Shown here: in pieces, positions 2 through 63,930 of the stretch | Position numbering within the stretch: the stretch's first letter is position 1 | Layout of the letters: each line of letters starts with the position of its first letter | From: Alistipes sp. | Lineage (GTDB): Bacteria; Bacteroidota; Bacteroidia; Bacteroidales; Rikenellaceae | Length of the DNA: 64,000 nucleotides | Direction: 5' to 3' | NCBI GenBank assembly: GCA_017560425.1 | Contig: JAFZEX010000015.1 | Span: 1-64,000 of the forward strand | The notes under the pieces: generated by a model | What the model was told of the DNA's origin: nothing | The model's database searches: none | Seen by the model: the letters and a program-made list of their open reading frames with translations, nothing else | Translations under genes and position numbers: made by a program

Positions 2-469
2 AAGGTAGGTGGTAACTACGCTTCATCTATCTGGTCATTGGAGGAGGCTCACACTAAGGGCTTCTCTAACGTATTGTATCTCGATGCTGCTACTCACTCA
101 AAGGTTGAGGAGTTTGGTGCTGCAAACTTCTTCGGTATCAAGAACAACACTTACGTAACTCCTAAGTCAGCATCTATCCTTCCATCAATCACCAACAAGA
201 GCCTTCGTCAGATCGCTGCTGACCTTGGTCTTACTGTTGAGGAGCGTGATATCCCTGTTGAGGAGCTCGCTACATTCGAGGAGGCAGGTGCTTGCGGTAC
301 TGCAGCAGTTATCTCTCCTATCGGCGCATTGTACGATCTCGACAACAACGTTACTTACGACTACGGCATGAAGGTTGGCGAGACTTGCAAGAAGATGTAC
401 GACCACCTTCAGGGCATCCAGTACGGCCGTGTTGAGGACGTACACAACTGGAACGTTGAGGTAATGTAA
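2..469 (+). CDS. ilvE: Branched-chain amino acid aminotransferase, C-terminal part (cut by window start)
   Basis: The open frame enters from the left edge and encodes the last ~155 residues of a fold-type IV PLP aminotransferase. The segment KVGGNYASS at the edge, the later CGTAAVISPIG region (typical cofactor-phosphate binding loop of the BCAT family) and the C-terminal YGRVEDVHNW fit IlvE. The enzyme exchanges amino groups between Leu/Ile/Val and their 2-oxo acids with glutamate/2-oxoglutarate in the cytoplasm. The lysine that carries PLP lies outside the window. The stop codon TAA is the left end of a repeat/terminator element (468-560). Family assignment is secure; the gene symbol is by family resemblance. 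Confidence 0.88.
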   Translation, partial: KVGGNYASSIWSLEEAHTKGFSNVLYLDAATHSKVEEFGAANFFGIKNNTYVTPKSASILPSITNKSLRQIAADLGLTVEERDIPVEELATFEEAGACGTAAVISPIGALYDLDNNVTYDYGMKVGETCKKMYDHLQGIQYGRVEDVHNWNVEVM

Positions 470-560
470 TTTCTTGAGATAAGGACGCATCTGCGCCCTC
501 TCAATCAAAACCCCGAATGAGCAATATGCCCATTCGGGGTTTCTTTGTGCTAAAACCAAA
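468..560 (+). repeat. Stop-codon-anchored repeat element, copy A (with terminator hairpin)
   Basis: Copy A starts at the TAA of ilvE (AATTTCTTGAGATAAGG) and holds a first hairpin (CGC/GCG within AAGGACGCATCTGCGCCCT), then a terminator hairpin with arms CCCCGAATG (511-519) and CATTCGGGG (531-539) followed by TTTCTTTG. The apex AGCAATATGCC is a shortened form of the conserved apical sequence seen in the other copies. The tail TTTGTGCTAAAACCAA matches the right tail of copy B. It should terminate ilvE transcription. Confidence 0.75.
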
Positions 561-11886: not shown

Positions 11887-12261
11887 ATGGCAGAGGAGAA
11901 AACCCGTTACAACGACGCTGAGCTCGAGGAGTTCCGCCTGTTGATTGAGCAGAAGTTGGCCTCGGCAAGAGCCGACTACGATATGTTGCGCACAGCAACA
12001 AGCAACGAGAACGACACCGAGGATTCATCTCCTACGTTCAAGGTTATGGAGGAGGGTGCCACAACACTCTCTAAGGAGGAGTATGGCCGTTTGGCACAGC
12101 GCCAGGCTAAGTTTATCCGCAACCTTGAGATGGCATTGGTGCGTATCAAGAACAAGACCTACGGCATTTGCAAGACCTCAGGCAAGCTCATTCCCCGTGA
12201 GCGCCTATTGCGTGTTCCACATGCTACTGAGTGCATCGAGGTAAAAGAGGCCCGTAAGTAA
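11887..12261 (+). CDS. DksA/TraR-family protein with incomplete zinc site
   Basis: The 124-residue product has an N-terminal coiled coil (~8-40, LEEFRLLIEQKL) and the DksA/TraR C-terminal region TYGICKTSGKLIPRERL (~95-111) and PHATECIE (~114-121). DksA-type proteins enter the RNA polymerase secondary channel and modulate initiation with ppGpp. Only two of the usual four zinc cysteines remain: the second is Ser in CKTS and the last is Val/Lys in CIEVKE. Such reduced sites are common in Bacteroidota members of the family. The stop codon TAA is the first bases of repeat copy B. Confidence 0.88.
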   Translation: MAEEKTRYNDAELEEFRLLIEQKLASARADYDMLRTATSNENDTEDSSPTFKVMEEGATTLSKEEYGRLAQRQAKFIRNLEMALVRIKNKTYGICKTSGKLIPRERLLRVPHATECIEVKEARK

Positions 12262-12389
12262 TTTCTTGTGATAAGGGGTCATCTTCGACCTATCCCAAAA
12301 AGCTGAGCACCCGAGGCTGTACTAAGTGTACTATCCTCGGGTGCTCACTTTTGTGATAAGCCAAATCTAACCCCTTCTAACAAGAAATT
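12260..12389 (+). repeat. Stop-codon-anchored repeat element, copy B (best terminal inverted repeats)
   Basis: Left end AATTTCTTGTGATAAGGGGT (12260-12279) and right end AACCCCTTCTAACAAGAAATT (12369-12389, 21 nt described as ACCCC...ACAAGAAAT) are inverted copies with few mismatches. Inside are a small hairpin (GGTC/GACC), a terminator with arms GAGCACCCGAGG (12305-12316) and CCTCGGGTGCTC (12335-12346), and the apical motif CTGTACTAAGTGTACT. The element begins in the dksA-like stop codon. Confidence 0.8.
12305..12353 (+). terminator. Terminator hairpin in copy B
   Basis: A 12-bp perfect GC-rich stem with an 18-nt loop followed by ACTTTTG; it should end the dksA-like transcript. Confidence 0.75.
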
Positions 12390-22615: not shown

Positions 22616-24454
22616 ATGTTTAAAACATATTTACGACTACTCAACTTTGCTAAGCCACTAAGTAGGTACACCGTGCCTTACTTCTTCTTTGCTGCCTTTC
22701 ATGCGTTGTTCAACACCTTCAACTACGCAATGATTATCCCCATTCTCAACGCCATGTTTGAGAGTGATGGCGGCTTCGGCTTCGAGCCATTGTATGAGTT
22801 TCCGGGTATAGAGTTTAGCGAGGCGGGCTTCACGGCTGTGCTCAGCTACTTCTACACCTCGGTCTTTGGTGCGACGTTTAGTGCTGTGCGCTTCTTGGCG
22901 CTTCTTGGCGTTGTCACCATCACAATGAACCTCCTAAGCAACGCCTTTCGCTATGCTGCGGCGATGACTGTCGAAAGACTACGTGTGAACACCATTCAGC
23001 GTATGCGTGACGACATGTACTCGCATATCATCAACCTCAACGTAGGCTTCTTTGCTGGTCAGCGCAAGGGCGACATCATGTCACGCATCACTCAGGATGT
23101 TATGGTTGTGCAGTATTGTATCACTAACACCCTTCAAGTCGCCTTCCGTGACCCATTCCTTATCGTGGGTTTCCTTGTGCTCATGATTAGCATCTCATGG
23201 CAGCTATCACTCTTTGCCGTTGTCTTCCTCCCTATAGTGGGTCTTGTCATCGGCCGTGTTGTCAAGCGCTTGCGCCACCCTGCTATGCGTAGCCAGGAGC
23301 GCATGGGCGAGCTTGTGTCGGTGCTCGACGAGTCGTTGTCGGGAATCAAGATTATCAAGGGCTACAACGCCTCAGGCTTCCTTGTCGAGAAGTTTAAGTT
23401 TATAAATACGCAGCTCTCAAACCTCCTTATATCTATGGCACGCCGCCAGCAGCTCGCCTCGCCTATGAGCGAGTTTATGGGCATCACGGCTGTTGCCGTA
23501 ATCCTTGTCTTTGGAGGTATCCTCGTGGGTAATGGACTTATCAAGGGTGCGGGCTTCATCGCCTTTATCGCTGCCTTCTCGCAGATCACACGCCCCTTGC
23601 GCTCGTTTATCGACCAGTTTGCAAACATCAACCAGGGTGTTGCTGCGGGCGAGCGTATCTTCGCCATGCTCGACTCTAAGAGCGAGGTTGAGGATATGCC
23701 TAATGCACGTGACTTCGAGGGCTTGAAGCACTCTATCGAGCTTCGTGACGTGCGCTTCTCGTACGACGGCCAGCGTGATGTTATCGACGGCGTTACTATC
23801 AAGGTACGTAAGGGCGAGACCGTTGCCCTGGTGGGTGCTTCGGGTGGCGGTAAGTCTACGCTCAGCGAGCTTATACCACGCTTCTACGATGTTCAGGCGG
23901 GCGAGGTTTTGTTCGACGGCGTGAATGTCAAGGAGTACAAGCAGGAGTCGTTGCGCCAGAAGATGAGCATCGTGGCGCAGGAGACAGTCCTCTTCAACGA
24001 CTCTATCGAGGGTAATATCCTCATGGGTCGCCCATCAGCCACCCACGACGAGGTTGTCGAGGCATCGAAGGTTGCCAACGCCCACACCTTCATCATGGAG
24101 AGCCCCGAGGGTTATGCTACAAACATAGGCGACCGTGGCTCTAAGCTATCGGGAGGTCAGCGCCAGCGCATAAGCATCGCCCGTGCTGTGCTCAAAGACC
24201 CCGAGATTCTTATCCTCGACGAGGCGACCTCTGCCCTCGACACCGAGAGCGAGAAGCTTGTTCAGGATGCCCTCACCAACCTTCTCGAGGGTCGCACATC
24301 CATCGTCATTGCCCACCGCCTAAGCACTATCTACAATGCCGATAGAATCTATGTCATCGACAAGGGCCGTGTTGCCGAGGAGGGTACCCACTCCGAGCTC
24401 CTCGCCCGCAATGGTATCTATGCGCACCTAATAGCTATGCAAAGCTTCAAGTAA
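22616..24454 (+). CDS. ABC exporter, MsbA-like (fused membrane and ATPase domains)
   Basis: The 612-residue half-transporter has six predicted membrane helices (~20-330) and a nucleotide-binding domain (~370-605) with Walker A VGASGGGKSTLSEL, signature LSGGQRQRISIARA, Walker B ILILDEATSALD and H-loop IVIAHRLST. The overall form is that of MsbA-like lipid/drug exporters of the inner membrane; the substrate cannot be told from sequence. Loop at 55-80 is rich in Phe/Gly/Glu. The stop TAA begins repeat copy C. Confidence 0.93.
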   Translation: MFKTYLRLLNFAKPLSRYTVPYFFFAAFHALFNTFNYAMIIPILNAMFESDGGFGFEPLYEFPGIEFSEAGFTAVLSYFYTSVFGATFSAVRFLALLGVVTITMNLLSNAFRYAAAMTVERLRVNTIQRMRDDMYSHIINLNVGFFAGQRKGDIMSRITQDVMVVQYCITNTLQVAFRDPFLIVGFLVLMISISWQLSLFAVVFLPIVGLVIGRVVKRLRHPAMRSQERMGELVSVLDESLSGIKIIKGYNASGFLVEKFKFINTQLSNLLISMARRQQLASPMSEFMGITAVAVILVFGGILVGNGLIKGAGFIAFIAAFSQITRPLRSFIDQFANINQGVAAGERIFAMLDSKSEVEDMPNARDFEGLKHSIELRDVRFSYDGQRDVIDGVTIKVRKGETVALVGASGGGKSTLSELIPRFYDVQAGEVLFDGVNVKEYKQESLRQKMSIVAQETVLFNDSIEGNILMGRPSATHDEVVEASKVANAHTFIMESPEGYATNIGDRGSKLSGGQRQRISIARAVLKDPEILILDEATSALDTESEKLVQDALTNLLEGRTSIVIAHRLSTIYNADRIYVIDKGRVAEEGTHSELLARNGIYAHLIAMQSFK

Positions 24455-24591
24455 TTTGAAAGTGATAAGGGGTCGATTGCGTCCCCTAGAAAAAATCCCG
24501 ACAATGAGCAGTACTTCTTGTACAGCCCATCGTCGGGATTTTTGCCGAGTGTAGCACTCGGCGCCACTGCTGCACCACTCTAACAAGAAAT
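24453..24591 (+). repeat. Stop-codon-anchored repeat element, copy C (three hairpins)
   Basis: Left end AATTTGAAAGTGATAAGGGG at the ABC gene stop; first hairpin AGGGG/CCCCT; terminator with arms AAAAATCCCGAC (24491-24502) and GTCGGGATTTTT (24532-24543); apical motif TGAGCAGTACTTCTTGTACA; an extra hairpin GCCGAGT/ACTCGGC (24544-24562); right end CTCTAACAAGAAAT, as in copy B. Confidence 0.78.
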
Positions 24592-24628
24592 AGTGCGCTT
24601 ATGAATCGCTGGGGCAGAAGACAAAAAA

Positions 24629-24667
24629 GATGGTCGGGTATCACACTAAGCTGTGTACCCGACCATC
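24629..24667. terminator. Bidirectional terminator next to cotH
   Basis: Arms GATGGTCGGGT and ACCCGACCATC, with inner ACAC/GTGT; T-rich on the minus strand, so it serves cotH. Confidence 0.8.
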
Positions 24668-24700
24668 TCTCTATTTTTATGTCCTGCTCTCCTAAAGATT

Positions 24701-26239
24701 CTATTTCGAAGGTATCGAGCTTGCTTTGACCTTGAAGAAGTTCATCGACGAGTTGGCATCGAGCAGGCGGTAGTCGTAGATGTTACCCCAGCCGGCTGGG
24801 CGATCCTTAATCTCGCAATCCTCTTCGGTGTCGTTCACAACATAGCTACTAATCATGTTGTGCCATGTCTTGATGCGGTTAATCGACGCCGAGTAGTAGA
24901 ATAGGTTGTTTGCAGGGTTGCACAACTCGTTGAGCGCCTCGACATATATAGCACGATAGTCGTCAAACTTAAGTATCTTGCCGATAAGAGGGTTCTTGTT
25001 TGTGTCGCCCCAGTTTAGTGGATCGTGTCTTCCCGAGTCGCTTTGCACACCGCAGTTGAGCGACGTGCCGAGGGTGTTGTCGTAGTCGAACGGAATGAAG
25101 AAGAATTTGTAGTTGTCCTTATCCGACGAGTTGAAATATATGTAGTAGTTGTTCGAGTTGTTCCAATAGTCGTCCCACATGCCCACAACAACATTTGCGG
25201 CATAGGTGCGTAGGAGCAATCTCACGTCGCACACCGAGGCAATCCAGTCGTGGAACTCCTGACCTGTGAGGCGTGTTAGGTTTTTCGAGAACTCAAGGAG
25301 CTGAGCCTTTGCTGCGTCGAAGTTCTCGGTGTTTGTCTTTAGCTCGTATTGGTAGTTTGCCCCCGAGCCGTCGTCGGCATGTATCGAGGCGTTGCGTATG
25401 TCGTTGTAGTTGAGCGTAGCGCCAAACCTACACTTCCACAAGTTGTGTTCGTGGTCGCCAAATAGCTCCTTGCGCTTCTTCACATACTTGTCATCTACCG
25501 CCTCGATCATCTCGTATACGCCATAGTATGCGGGGTTGCTGTCGCCCTCGACATGAATCCATAGGCGGCAGTATGAGCTATATACCGATGTCCATATGCC
25601 GAAGCGGCGGAATAGGTCGTAGCAGTATAGCTCACGGCAGTATGCTCTATCGTCCTTATGCCACTTTAGGTGGAGCTTACGCACGTTGTGTAGCTCGTGG
25701 TCGTCGTCCTTCTGATACTTATGTAGGTTGAGCATAAAGTGGCAGTGGTGCCAGTCGGCGTTGTTGCGCCTGTGCATCTCGCCACCATTACCCTCGGGGC
25801 GGCGGCGTGAGGTGTTGCCACGCAGGCGCAAGCCCACGTCTGCGAAGTTGTGGGTCTCACCCTTCGACTTAAACTCGGCGTCGCAGTGAATATAGTGGCT
25901 GGTGTTGCTATCACGGTCATACTCCTGCAGCAGCTCGTTCCACTGCGCCTCGCTTACAGTTATGCGTATCTGTGGCAATACGTTCATGTCGAACACCCAG
26001 TCGAGCTCGCCCTGAGCCCACGAGGTGTCGGGGTAGTCGCCATATGTTGGGGTGTCGCCACCAGGATTTTCATCCTCCTTGCCATCATCGTTGCCGTCGT
26101 CCTTGCCATCATCGTTGCCGTTGCCACCGCCTGTGCCCTGGCTTGGTGGAAATGGAAGGTCGATCTCGAAGCCCTCGCATGCCGAGAAGCCGAGGAGTGT
26201 GACGAGTGCTACTGCTACTATGTATAAAAATTTTCTCAT
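24701..26239 (-). CDS. CotH-family protein kinase-like lipoprotein
   Basis: The 512-residue protein has a lipoprotein signal with lipobox GFSAC (Cys ~21), an Asp/Gly/Asn-rich low-complexity linker (~35-62) and a CotH domain (~85-480). Visible CotH features include GLRLRGNTSRRR (~138-149), YDLFRRFG and the late FIPFDYDNTLGTSLN (~388-402). CotH proteins are atypical kinases that phosphorylate secreted proteins; here it would face the periplasm or cell surface. The linker is encoded by a short tandem DNA repeat at ~26075-26130. It follows mscS by 19 bp. Confidence 0.85.
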   Translation of the reverse strand: MRKFLYIVAVALVTLLGFSACEGFEIDLPFPPSQGTGGGNGNDDGKDDGNDDGKEDENPGGDTPTYGDYPDTSWAQGELDWVFDMNVLPQIRITVSEAQWNELLQEYDRDSNTSHYIHCDAEFKSKGETHNFADVGLRLRGNTSRRRPEGNGGEMHRRNNADWHHCHFMLNLHKYQKDDDHELHNVRKLHLKWHKDDRAYCRELYCYDLFRRFGIWTSVYSSYCRLWIHVEGDSNPAYYGVYEMIEAVDDKYVKKRKELFGDHEHNLWKCRFGATLNYNDIRNASIHADDGSGANYQYELKTNTENFDAAKAQLLEFSKNLTRLTGQEFHDWIASVCDVRLLLRTYAANVVVGMWDDYWNNSNNYYIYFNSSDKDNYKFFFIPFDYDNTLGTSLNCGVQSDSGRHDPLNWGDTNKNPLIGKILKFDDYRAIYVEALNELCNPANNLFYYSASINRIKTWHNMISSYVVNDTEEDCEIKDRPAGWGNIYDYRLLDANSSMNFFKVKASSIPSK

Positions 26240-27488: not shown

Positions 27489-27574
27489 AATTCGTAGTGC
27501 TTAAAATTTGTTAAACAATGATTTAAAGGCGAAAGGTAGCAAAAATTGTGGAATTATCCACACCGCCAAACAAA

Positions 27575-27608
27575 AATTCTCGCCACCCGAAGCCGAGTAG
27601 CGAGAATT
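27575..27608. terminator. Terminator after WG-repeat gene 1 (duplicated sequence)
   Basis: Arms AATTCTCGC and GCGAGAATT. The flanks CAAACAAAAATTCTCGCCAC and GTTTAGATG recur at the terminator of the second WG gene (55709-55742). Confidence 0.75.
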
Positions 27609-28432: not shown

Positions 28433-28453
28433 AGGTTATTAGATTATTACAAA

Positions 28454-29155
28454 TTATTTCTCCTGCTCGTTAATCTCGATATCCTTCTGCGAAGGCTCAA
28501 TGATGACCTTCATGCCAATCTTCACAAGCTGCTTAAGCTTGTCGAGGTCAGCATTGTGAAGACGTATACAACCCTCAGTAGCACGTGTGCCGATTGACTC
28601 AGGCAGGTGTGTGCCGTGGATACCGATACCAGAGTGTGGAGGGGTATTGAGGCGGATAAACCAGTTGCCATAGCAACCAGCGATAATGCCCTTACCATCC
28701 TTAAAGTCGTGAGTCCAAAACGAAGCATCCTGAATCAGGCTAACTGAGAACTCACCCTCGGGGGTTCTCATATCGCCAGGCCTTTGCTTGTTGCCATAGT
28801 TCTTGCCAACAGCCACAGGGCAGTGCATAACAACATTGCCATCAGCATCGTAGAGCGTAAGTGTCATCGACTCCTTCGATATAACAATGCAGTCAGACAT
28901 AGAAGCATCAGCTACAAGCTCCTTCGACACGACCTCTTCCACAACCTCATAATCAGCCTTACCTTCAAGTTCGACACATATGTCGTAGAGGTCTAATACG
29001 GCGTGTCGCAATATGTTGATCTCTATACGCTGCAGTTCTACTTGCTCCTTGAGCGAGTTAATCTCGTTGTTGAGTGCTTCGATTTTACGTCGTTGTGCCG
29101 ACACAGAGCTCACTGCAACAATGAGCATCAGGGCGATGATAAATAGTCGTTTCAT
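28454..29155 (-). CDS. L,D-transpeptidase (YkuD domain) with coiled-coil N-terminus
   Basis: The 233-residue protein has a signal peptide (~1-20), a coiled coil (~22-65) and a YkuD domain (~88-225). The catalytic motif is seen as HGTHLPESIGTRATEGCIRL (~190-209), with the nucleophile Cys in GCIRL. Such enzymes make 3-3 crosslinks in peptidoglycan or attach proteins to it. The first ~60 residues resemble those of both WG proteins. Promoter TTTG-N19-TACCTTTG lies at 29177-29207. Confidence 0.92.
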   Translation of the reverse strand: MKRLFIIALMLIVAVSSVSAQRRKIEALNNEINSLKEQVELQRIEINILRHAVLDLYDICVELEGKADYEVVEEVVSKELVADASMSDCIVISKESMTLTLYDADGNVVMHCPVAVGKNYGNKQRPGDMRTPEGEFSVSLIQDASFWTHDFKDGKGIIAGCYGNWFIRLNTPPHSGIGIHGTHLPESIGTRATEGCIRLHNADLDKLKQLVKIGMKVIIEPSQKDIEINEQEK

Positions 29156-29176
29156 GGTTATTAGTGATTAATAACA

Positions 29177-29207
29177 CAAAGGTAATAAAATAAAGATATA
29201 CCACAAA
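29177..29207 (-). promoter_or_regulatory. Promoter of ykuD-WG operon
   Basis: On the minus strand, TTTG (29204-29207) is 19 bp from TACCTTTG (29177-29184), close to the Bacteroidota consensus. Confidence 0.65.
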
Positions 29208-29296
29208 TAATATCGGAAACAGATTGTGTAGTACTGGGTATTTCCGCTTCGCTCTGGGAAGAATGGGGGAGATGGGGTTAGATAATCCCGCAGTGT

Positions 29297-29426
29297 AATT
29301 TAGCGATAGAAGGTAGTAGCTGTGGTCTTGACATGAAAAAGCTCCAGATGGGCTGTACTTGACGTACTGCTCATTTGGAGCTTTGATTGAAAGGCCGCAG
29401 ATGCTGCCTTATCTCGCTAAATTTTA
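29297..29426 (-). repeat. Stop-codon-anchored repeat element, copy E (minus strand)
   Basis: Read on the minus strand it begins right after the fabG stop as AATTTAGCGAGATAAGGCAG and ends with CTACCTTCTATCGCTAAATT; these ends are inverted repeats. Inside are a first hairpin (GCAG/CTGC), a terminator (GCTCCA.../...TGGAGC, 29341-29381) and the apical motif TGAGCAGTACGTCAAGTACA. Confidence 0.78.
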
Positions 29427-30170
29427 GCAGTTCATGGCACCACAACAGTGGATTACCTGTCCGCTAACATATGCCGAGAGGTCAGAGCCAAGGAACACTG
29501 CAACATTTGCAACATCCTCAGGGGTGCCGCCACGGCGTAGTGGAATCTGCGCTGCCCACTGATCCTTAACCTCCTGCGAGAGCTGGTTGGTCATATCTGT
29601 AACGATGAAGCCTGGGGCGATGCAGTTAGCACGGATGCCACGAGGACCCATCTCCTTAGCGATAGACTTAGCCAAGCCAATCATACCAGCCTTAGATGCC
29701 GAGTAGTTGCACTGGCCTGCGTTGCCCGAAACACCAACAACAGATGACATGTTGATGATTGAGCCTGAGCGCTGCTTAGCCATAACAGGGGTCACGGCGT
29801 GGATAAAGTTGAATGCCGACTTAAGGTTTACGTTGATAACAGCATCCCACTGAGCCTCCGACATACGCATCATAAGGCCGTCCTTGGTAATACCTGCGTT
29901 GTTCACCAACACGTCGATACGACCGAAGTCCTCGACAACCTGCTTAACAACCTCGTGTGTCTCGTCGAAGTTAGCAGCATTTGAGGCATATGCCTTAGCC
30001 TTAACGCCGAGAGCCTCAATCTCCTTAACAGTCTCCTCGACAGCCTCATTAATAGCCAAATCTGTGAATGCTACGTGAGCACCCTCCTGGGCATAGCGCA
30101 AAGCGATAGCCTTGCCAATGCCTCGTCCAGCACCTGTTACAAGTGCTACCTTTCCTTCAAGAAGTTTCAT
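29424..30170 (-). CDS. fabG: 3-oxoacyl-[ACP] reductase
   Basis: FabG reduces 3-oxoacyl-ACP with NADPH in fatty acid elongation. The 248-residue SDR has TGAGRGIGKAIA (~12-23), NNAGITKDGLMMRM (~89-102), the catalytic Ser in NMSSVVGVSG (~141-150) and YSASKAG (~155-161). It is the last gene of the fabH-fabF-fabG operon, 27 bp after fabF. The C-terminus (GAMNC) is slightly unusual. Confidence 0.95.
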   Translation of the reverse strand: MKLLEGKVALVTGAGRGIGKAIALRYAQEGAHVAFTDLAINEAVEETVKEIEALGVKAKAYASNAANFDETHEVVKQVVEDFGRIDVLVNNAGITKDGLMMRMSEAQWDAVINVNLKSAFNFIHAVTPVMAKQRSGSIINMSSVVGVSGNAGQCNYSASKAGMIGLAKSIAKEMGPRGIRANCIAPGFIVTDMTNQLSQEVKDQWAAQIPLRRGGTPEDVANVAVFLGSDLSAYVSGQVIHCCGAMNC

Positions 30171-55674: not shown

Positions 55675-55708
55675 TACATAGATTCTTGCCGATACACTAT
55701 CAAACAAA

Positions 55709-55742
55709 AATTCTCGCCACCCATAACCGAGTGGCGAGAATT
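55709..55742. terminator. Terminator after WG-repeat gene 2 (duplicated sequence)
   Basis: Arms AATTCTCGCCAC and GTGGCGAGAATT with a 10-nt loop; flanks match the terminator at 27575-27608. It may also end the AraC gene. Confidence 0.8.
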
Positions 55743-63232: not shown

Positions 63233-63257
63233 ATTGCTAACTAATAAAACTAAAGAT

Positions 63258-63815
63258 ATGGATACTAAGACTATTCTAAGTGAGGCAACCGACCGCATGC
63301 AGCGTGCTGTTGACCATCTTGTTGAGGAGCTTCTCAACATCCGTGCTGGTAAGGCATCAGTGAATGTTCTTAATGGCGTTTTCGTTGATTACTACGGCTC
63401 GCAGACCCCTGTATCAGGCGTTGCCAGCGTCACTGTGCCCGATGCAAAGACCGTGCTTATTCAGCCATGGGACAAGAATATGATTCGCCCTATCGAGAAG
63501 GCTATCATCGACTCAAACATCGGCCTTACACCATCGAACAATGGTGAGCACATCCGCCTCTCAATCCCACCACTTACTGAGGATCGTCGTAAGGAGATCG
63601 TTAAGACCGTTAAGGGCGAGGGCGAGACTGCACGTATCAGCCTACGTAACGCACGTCGTGATGCTGTTGAGGCATTCAAGAAGGCTCAGAAGGAGGGCAT
63701 GTCTGAGGACGAGCAGAAGGACGGCGAGGCACAGGTACAGAAGCTTCTTGAGAAGTTCACCAAGATTCTCGATGCTGAGCTTGAGAAGAAGGAGAAAGAG
63801 GTAATGACCGTGTAA
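63258..63815 (+). CDS. frr: Ribosome recycling factor
   Basis: Frr splits the post-termination ribosome with EF-G. The product (185 residues from ATG 63258) has LNIRAGKASVNVLNGV (~30-45), VASVTVPDAKTVLIQPWD (~60-77) and the C-terminal LRNARRDAVEAFKKAQK (~132-148). The earlier start at 63234 adds eight residues and is less likely. The stop TAA begins repeat copy D. Confidence 0.96.
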   Translation: MDTKTILSEATDRMQRAVDHLVEELLNIRAGKASVNVLNGVFVDYYGSQTPVSGVASVTVPDAKTVLIQPWDKNMIRPIEKAIIDSNIGLTPSNNGEHIRLSIPPLTEDRRKEIVKTVKGEGETARISLRNARRDAVEAFKKAQKEGMSEDEQKDGEAQVQKLLEKFTKILDAELEKKEKEVMTV

Positions 63816-63930
63816 GTTGTTGCGATAAGGGGCTATTCTCGGCCCATCTCATAAGTAAGACCCCTCGGGCTGTACTTCTTGTACAATCCCGAGGGGATCT
63901 TCTTTTGCGAAAGACCAAGCCTACCCCCTC
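63814..63930 (+). repeat. Stop-codon-anchored repeat element, copy D
   Basis: Starts at the frr stop (AAGTTGTTGCGATAAGGGG); first hairpin GATAAGGGGC/GCCCATC; terminator arms CCCCTCGGG (63861-63869) and CCCGAGGGG (63888-63896) around apex CTGTACTTCTTGTACAAT; tail TTTTGCGAAAGACCAAGCC, then CCCCCTC. Confidence 0.76.
63858..63905 (+). terminator. Terminator hairpin of copy D (frr)
   Basis: 9-bp perfect GC-rich core extended by AGA/TCT, with an 18-nt loop and TCTTCTTTT after the stem. Confidence 0.78.

Follow-up and report, generated by a model that had tools for sequence, protein, structure and literature searches.

An Alistipes genome carries at least 143 copies of a repeat of about 130 bases that in most cases lies flush with the ends of genes, nearly always on one strand of each contig. 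When complete, the repeat forms a single long, imperfect hairpin whose end arms match, and its conserved and covarying fold belongs to the strand complementary to the gene. We tentatively propose that the functional form of the repeat is this opposite strand folded as a single-stranded DNA hairpin, the copies making up a REPIN/ERIC-like family at the level of the genus. The window in which the repeat was noticed is a stretch of 64,000 nucleotides on contig C8 of a 1.84-Mb, 50-contig MAG (G000, here the source genome), which is a relative of ruminant-gut Alistipes/Rikenellaceae.

Five copies in the window follow unrelated genes, at the places given by the first-pass annotation. Copy A (468..560, plus strand) lies 3' of ilvE (frame 38-469), copy B (12260..12389, plus strand) 3' of a DksA/TraR-like gene (11887-12261), copy C (24453..24590, plus strand) 3' of an ABC exporter gene, copy D (63814..63930, plus strand) 3' of frr (63234-63815), and copy E (29297..29423, minus strand) 3' of a fabG-like gene (29424-30170, minus strand). 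The Pfam families of the upstream genes are, in the order A, B, C, E, D, aminotransferase class IV, DksA/TraR zinc finger, ABC exporter, short-chain dehydrogenase (FabG type) and ribosome recycling factor. Copy E had been given as 29297-29426; its extent is right up to 29423, and the last three bases, 29424-29426, are the stop codon of the fabG-like gene. As annotated, a TAA stop overlaps or abuts every copy: in A-D its T is the base just before the repeat (offset -1), and in E the whole codon abuts the repeat. Copies B and E are complete. In B the left arm AATTTCTTGT (12260..12269, plus strand), which has the AA of the stop codon in common with the gene, is matched by its reverse complement, the right arm ACAAGAAATT (12380..12389, plus strand); the arms of E are AATTTAGCGA and TCGCTAAATT. 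Copy C has two arms mismatched to each other and an additional small hairpin, and the right arm of D is degenerate. Copy A has the left arm and both hairpins but no right arm, being cut off at a parS-like site. What had been described as a right tail common to all five copies turns out to be the 3' side of the outer hairpin, with a matching arm in B and E only. The parS-like palindrome, GTTCCACGTGGAAC, is at 562-575, directly 3' of the truncated copy A, and a near-match to it begins some 48 bases later; it is also found near ilvE in the related genome G017. parS palindromes serve as chromosome partition sites.

The GATAAGG hairpin ascribed to the five copies is present in all of them. In B this first local hairpin (GATAAGG...TATC, 12270..12294, plus strand), which is also in the consensus, would form as an alternative to the outer stem, and the minimum-energy fold of B as a single copy favours the outer stem over it. 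The apical hairpin (12304..12347), with a GTAC...GTAC tip, an A run before and a T run after, looks like a two-way terminator. Allowing up to two mismatches, the GATAAGG hairpin pattern has 12 matches in the window, the five copies and seven others; the mean in shuffles is 4.0, and 12 was reached in none of 100. All five copies fold much better than shuffled sequences (z from -4.5 to -9.7). An Rfam search of the whole window gave no match above gathering score, and the best matches of B and E, below threshold and on the opposite strand, are to unrelated hairpin families. Copy B has no match in phage and plasmid collections. A second repeated terminator-like sequence, unrelated to the family, occurs in the window as two 49-base stretches that are 86% alike (27560-27608 and 55694-55742), the first of which has a strong hairpin with a T tail on the minus strand.

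The first-pass annotation had proposed a covariance model search of this genome and its relatives, and a model search finds the family to be far larger than five copies. Model R1, built from the five window copies, has at least 150 matches in the source genome down to E about 2e-7. We used 143 rows, after seven opposite-strand shadows had been dropped and with one pair overlapping by about 50 bases; because at least six further same-strand matches lie outside the 143, the true copy number is higher. R1 was positive in 13 of 41 genomes, all of the same genus (the source genome and 12 of 24 sampled same-genus species), and had no match in 16 genomes of other families of the order. A broader model, R2, built from 31 divergent copies, was positive in 70 of the 200 Rikenellaceae genomes searched, among them the source genome: 62 of the same genus, seven of a second genus and one of a third. 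The E-values of both models are rough. Presence among close relatives is patchy. A pattern scan of named genomes found at least 95 stretches. Among the 80 matches listed, 73 are from MAGs of Alistipes or Rikenellaceae, and where the source of these MAGs is named it is mostly a ruminant; the seven others are chance-like, with a best R1 E of 0.12. The source genome, G017 and G133 are MAGs, and the remaining genomes were treated as such.

Within the source genome 37 of the 143 copies have a tandem copy behind them. By eye, some copies are shortened and others are chimeras that join the left half of one type to the right half of another. The 35 contigs with copies have 70 ends, and 19 of these ends have a copy within 500 bases, so assemblies may break at the repeats and the copy number may be underestimated. 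Long intergenic stretches of 9-base repeats (among them GAATTTAGG, AGGACCTTA and TGATGGGAG), followed by their complements, occur 3' of many of the last copies and would fold into large hairpins; similar stretches lie behind dksA in G004, where the family copy is absent. Of 104 last copies, 53 have a GTGCGC-like motif within 30 bases of their 3' end, which may be the beginning of a further repeat unit.

Anchoring at gene ends was measured against stops closing open frames of at least 60 codons, taken as open frames without a gene caller. With 37 tandem followers and three copies at contig edges set aside from the 143 rows, 103 first-in-array copies remain, and 100 of them have a stop within 12 bases. 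In 66 the offset is -1 (63 TAA, 3 TAG), and the repeat contributes the last two bases of the stop; 27 others are at -2 to -12, seven at +9 (with a TGA inside the repeat) and three farther away or without a stop. The distances are thus not random, in keeping with the annotated idea of an element anchored at gene ends. In G133 the offset is -1 in 21 of 37 copies not flagged as tandem, and five have no nearby stop, two of them being tandem by eye; in G022 it is -1 in 13 of 20 sampled copies. Anchoring is looser in G003, where four of 20 copies have no such stop nearby and two more are at -59 and +23.

Judged from the sequences, the stop is native at the three genes tested. In G022 and G004, which have no repeat at ilvE, dksA and the ABC exporter gene, the three proteins terminate where those of the copy-bearing genomes do, and in four of these six cases the stop is TAG, versus TAA in the source genome and G017. 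For these three genes we therefore reject a stop that is made by the repeat and truncates the gene. A repeat-created stop is also disfavoured by the unequal use of frames (66 of 103 at -1 versus 7 at +9). One copy overlaps the last two bases of tRNA-Gln, and one lies directly after the terminator of a gene that looks, by eye, like L27. The rule is therefore that the repeat sits right against the end of a gene unit, in most cases the stop codon. The neighbours of 106 copies are convergent in 50 cases and in the same direction in 41, with none found in 15; a role as 3' UTR of a convergent neighbour was rejected on the first two counts.

A complete copy is built of arms of the form AATTTnnnnn / n'n'n'n'n'AAATT, then stems interrupted by small internal loops, and a GTAC...GTAC tip. 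Among 138 examined copies the tip was recognised in 122, with 59 different loops, and the arms occur in 69 combinations, their variable bases changing together. For the 31 divergent copies, the consensus fold of the opposite strand has an energy of -33.6 kcal/mol and 38 pairs, 28 of them changed on both sides; that of the gene strand has -9.0 kcal/mol and 20 pairs, 14 of them changed on both sides. The opposite-strand structure pairs in 90.1% of cells versus 71.1% in shuffles, and cells changed on both sides number 230 versus 86, with slid versions of the structure nowhere near; the structure was derived from the same 31-copy alignment, which favours it, and the copies are kin to each other, so the cell counts are not independent. 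That the stems differ while pairing is kept, as the first-pass annotation had described, is borne out by this covariation, which likewise does not refute the annotated idea of an element anchored at gene ends.

The folding of single copies points to the same strand. It is the opposite strand that has the better fold in 129 of 138 source-genome copies, 33 of 35 in G017, 17 of 20 in G022 and 20 of 20 in G003 (fixed 128-base windows in these last two), and 49 of 50 in G133. The folds of the gene strand are about 14 kcal/mol weaker. In the first four of these genomes there are 4.2-4.8 G-T pairs per copy on the opposite strand versus 0.3-0.5 on the gene strand. In the 31-copy alignment the non-Watson-Crick cells of the opposite strand include 152 G-T and 16 A-C, and an internal loop at columns 26/118 has facing G and A in 25 of the 31 copies. 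In the arms alone the wobble asymmetry is weak, with 18 G-T versus 30 A-C cells on the gene strand. Mutational strand bias was rejected as the source of the G-T excess: the third-position skew, with more G and T in genes that run in the same direction as the copies, points to C-to-T change on the gene strand and would predict the opposite asymmetry. This suggests selection on the opposite strand, acting on it as RNA or as single-stranded DNA.

Placement is also confined largely to one strand. On the 18 source-genome contigs with at least four copies, 104 of 114 copies lie on the majority strand of the contig (133 of 143 overall), frames being common on both strands and tandem copies not being independent. 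On contig C6 of G017, where sites were counted by hand, 16 lie behind 114 plus-strand frames and four behind 151 minus-strand frames (p = 0.0007), the strand of the elements being the one with fewer frames. A 400-kb sample of G133 has 47 of 50 copies on the majority strand of the contig; a test against the frame ratio gives p = 3e-9, which exaggerates the bias, since the copies themselves define the majority and tandem copies are counted twice. In all seven sampled G133 contigs, of both polarities, the gene strand of the copies has more G and T than the other, both along entire stretches and in third codon positions. The G/T-rich strand is usually the leading strand; the gene strand is thus presumably leading and the foldable strand the leading-strand template. 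No strand switch was seen within a contig and tRNA orientation on contig C6 of G017 is uninformative (five of 11 agree with the element strand, six are against it), so this assignment rests on base skew. Ribosomal protein L2, found in one of seven genomes, was useless as a marker; the six without a match to PF00181 (G000, G017, G003, G022, G021 and G011) are 78-93% complete, and L2 is probably missing from these bins. Copy E is the exception to the plus-strand majority of the window. Its segment is inverted relative to G017, where the corresponding copy has the plus-strand orientation of most copies around it.

The centre of the repeat has features of a transcription terminator. A run of at least four T lies 8-32 bases after the tip in 100 of the 122 copies with a recognised tip, and a run of at least four A lies 8-32 bases before it in 84 of them, which makes the centre look two-way; on any reading of the repeat, the centre could plausibly act as a two-way terminator. 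These runs bear on the possible, though doubtful, reading of the repeat as a gene-end RNA element that acts in the direction of the gene, terminates transcription, protects the 3' end and is kept because genes need it. The T run, the strong folds, the start at the stop codon and the keeping of sites between near species are all consistent with such an element. However, the conserved structure is on the other strand, the A and T runs together give the centre a two-way look, one copy follows a gene's own terminator and another a tRNA, and G022 and G004 manage without a copy at ilvE, dksA and the ABC gene. Placement of the copies on one strand is not what a 3'-end RNA element predicts.

It is unlikely that the copies are transcribed toward the gene, giving an antisense hairpin RNA that acts on the gene or is bound by a protein. 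The G-U pairs, the covariation and the facing G-A mismatches of the opposite strand are all RNA-like, and the best Rfam matches of B and E, below threshold as they are, fall on that strand. Since wobble pairs, G-A mismatches and compensatory changes are equally typical of RNA, they also count against reading the fold as single-stranded DNA. An antisense RNA nonetheless sits poorly with a hypervariable tip loop (59 loops in 122 copies), and by eye we recognised no shared promoter. The mixed orientation of the neighbours means that none of them gives a common transcript, and an RNA role predicts no placement on one strand.

The sites are shared between near species and the interiors of the copies differ. 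Among 102 gene ends with a copy in the source genome, 35 were located in 508 kb of G017, and 34 of these 35 have a copy at the same gene end. Because the sites barely differ between the two genomes, recent movement is not supported. Of the 34 pairs, 11 (32%) have interiors with a likeness of 80% or more, versus 34 of 200 random pairs from the source genome (17%). At the dksA site (copy B) the G017 copy has a different interior, at the ABC exporter site (copy C) G017 has two tandem copies, at the fabG site (copy E) both G017 and G022 have a copy at the same gene end, and at the frr site (copy D) G017 has a complete copy. The empty alleles of G022 and G004, which have no copy at ilvE, dksA and the ABC gene, keep the stop position, and their downstream flank cannot be aligned by eye; the sites compared yielded no clean pair of an empty and a filled allele that has a target duplication. 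Two breaks in synteny between the source genome and G017, at 24453-24701 and 28447-29407 of the window, coincide with copies C and E; the other breakpoints in the window involve no copy.

For 12 of 20 sampled G022 copies the same gene end also bears a copy in the source genome, the proteins being 85-99% identical in 11 cases and 70% in one. For two other G022 genes the orthologues in the source-genome stretches examined (82% and 93%) are not followed by a copy, and the remaining ones were not found there or only at 31% identity. The much more distant G003 has the dksA site in common with the source genome (72% identity). Three of its genes at 77-82% identity have no copy there, which leaves dksA as the only one with a copy among the four G003 genes more than 70% identical in the examined stretches; three further shared hits are between proteins 42-47% identical and may be paralogues. 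Sites are thus kept among near species and are largely different at depth.

If the opposite strand is the functional form, it would fold as single-stranded DNA, and the folded strand would serve as substrate for recombination or copying between copies. The agent would be an enzyme outside those we recognised, or general recombination. By filling the 3' end of the gene, the repeats would probably also supply it with a two-way transcription terminator. Our search for enzymes covered Y1 transposase/RAYT, reverse transcriptase and integron integrase. Y1 transposase/RAYT (PF01797) was found in none of 25 genomes of the genus, several of them incomplete MAGs, and in five of 14 controls; a REP/RAYT system was rejected on this result. 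Reverse transcriptase (PF00078) is absent from the copy-rich G000, G017, G022, G021 and G011, and the copy-rich G003 and G006 have one each. Its absence from five of seven copy-rich genomes led us to reject retro-copying or a derivative of a group II intron. No integron integrase (TIGR02249) passed the curated cut-off in 61 genomes, and none of the 14 controls passes it either, weaker matches being present in all 61 genomes and all 14 controls. Integron sites were rejected on this result and for want of fixed core boxes. We consider it improbable that the copies are attC-like single-strand recombination sites spread over the chromosome behind leading-strand genes and served by an unrecognised recombinase, so that genes with their hairpins could be moved, duplicated and reordered like cassettes.

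Four near-identical copies in G133 (L365:17229, L370:4996, L372:10629 and L359:4043) lie inside a MITE-like element of about 260 bases, whose two ends, GAGGCTGAATAAAAAG and TTATTCAACCTC, can be clearly recognised in L372 and L359 but have diverged in L365 and L370; three of the four are 32-44 bases after a stop, and for one no stop was found. These copies bear on a very improbable account in which the palindrome is kept for DNA reasons and selection has weakened the gene-strand hairpin to spare the terminating ribosome, the G-T excess being a by-product. REPs near stop codons hinder translation in E. coli, and gene-strand folds some 14 kcal/mol weaker in repeats that start at the stop codon agree with this account. 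By itself, though, it leaves the compensatory changes unexplained, and the four MITE-borne copies, which amount to one independent case, have the same asymmetry (-60 vs -45 kcal/mol). We give hardly any credence to the copies being inert leftovers of a past MITE burst, with the transposase lost, gene conversion since and gene ends merely tolerating them: high copy number, chimeric and shortened copies seen by eye, patchy presence in the genus and the MITE-like repeat of G133 that carries a copy all speak for it, but tolerated insertions should scatter between genes and not cluster at -1, and pairing is kept across very different copies.

Should the single-stranded DNA reading hold, a chromosome could carry well over 100 structured single-strand hairpins under two rules, one setting them flush with the gene end and the other on one replication strand, and gene-end architecture, replication polarity and repeat evolution would become linked. 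The family, patchy among close species, would then offer a natural system in which to study how palindromic repeats are copied, kept and made uniform when no transposase is known. Annotators should note that the repeats form the 3' ends of many genes.

We found no description of this repeat family in the literature searched, which left out most subscription papers and is no proof of novelty. Two-way intrinsic terminators resemble the centre of many copies in having an A run, a stem and a T run. This likeness is confined to the inner third of our repeat; a terminator has no counterpart to the outer arms, their covariation or the strand asymmetry. ERIC elements are palindromic and also have a 3' position. 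The enterobacterial repeat RU-1, for its part, is given as 127 bp (PMC2759123), and MITE-type repeats are described as adjoining genes, with proposed effects on their mRNA (PMC2229807). ERIC, IRU and RU-1, like the MITEs RUP and Correia, are similar to our family in size and in their place next to genes. Unlike in these, the arms of our repeats covary and are not fixed, with 69 combinations in 138 copies instead of terminal inverted repeats common to all, the interior modules differ widely, no TA duplication was demonstrated at the sites compared, and the phylum is a different one. REP and REPIN sequences are described as hairpins that occur interspersed and in high numbers within a genome, show compensatory changes and form clusters (PMC3116915, PMC3733652). 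Our family likewise has many interspersed hairpin copies with compensatory changes, with GTAC as a common motif at the hairpin tip; it differs in a length of about 130 bases, anchoring at the stop codon, a strand bias along the chromosome and the lack of a RAYT in the 25 genomes searched.

The core boxes of attC sites are RYYYAAC and GTTRRRY, whereas the arms of our repeats vary (TTGTTG, TTCTTG, TAGCG and others) and have no such boxes. In the account of chromosomal integrons in PMC5371416, the recombining bottom strand of attC is on the leading-strand template in 25 of 30, and PMC11023631 describes a growth cost of inversion in such integrons. Our copies differ from attC sites in being dispersed behind ordinary chromosomal genes and in having variable arms without an invariant core; they are like them in being hairpins behind genes, in having the bottom strand as the presumably active one and in the position of this strand, judged here by base skew, on the leading-strand template. 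As a population of hairpins with compensatory changes in which no RAYT was found and which is not made up of attC sites, the family is therefore best filed among the interspersed palindromic repeats.
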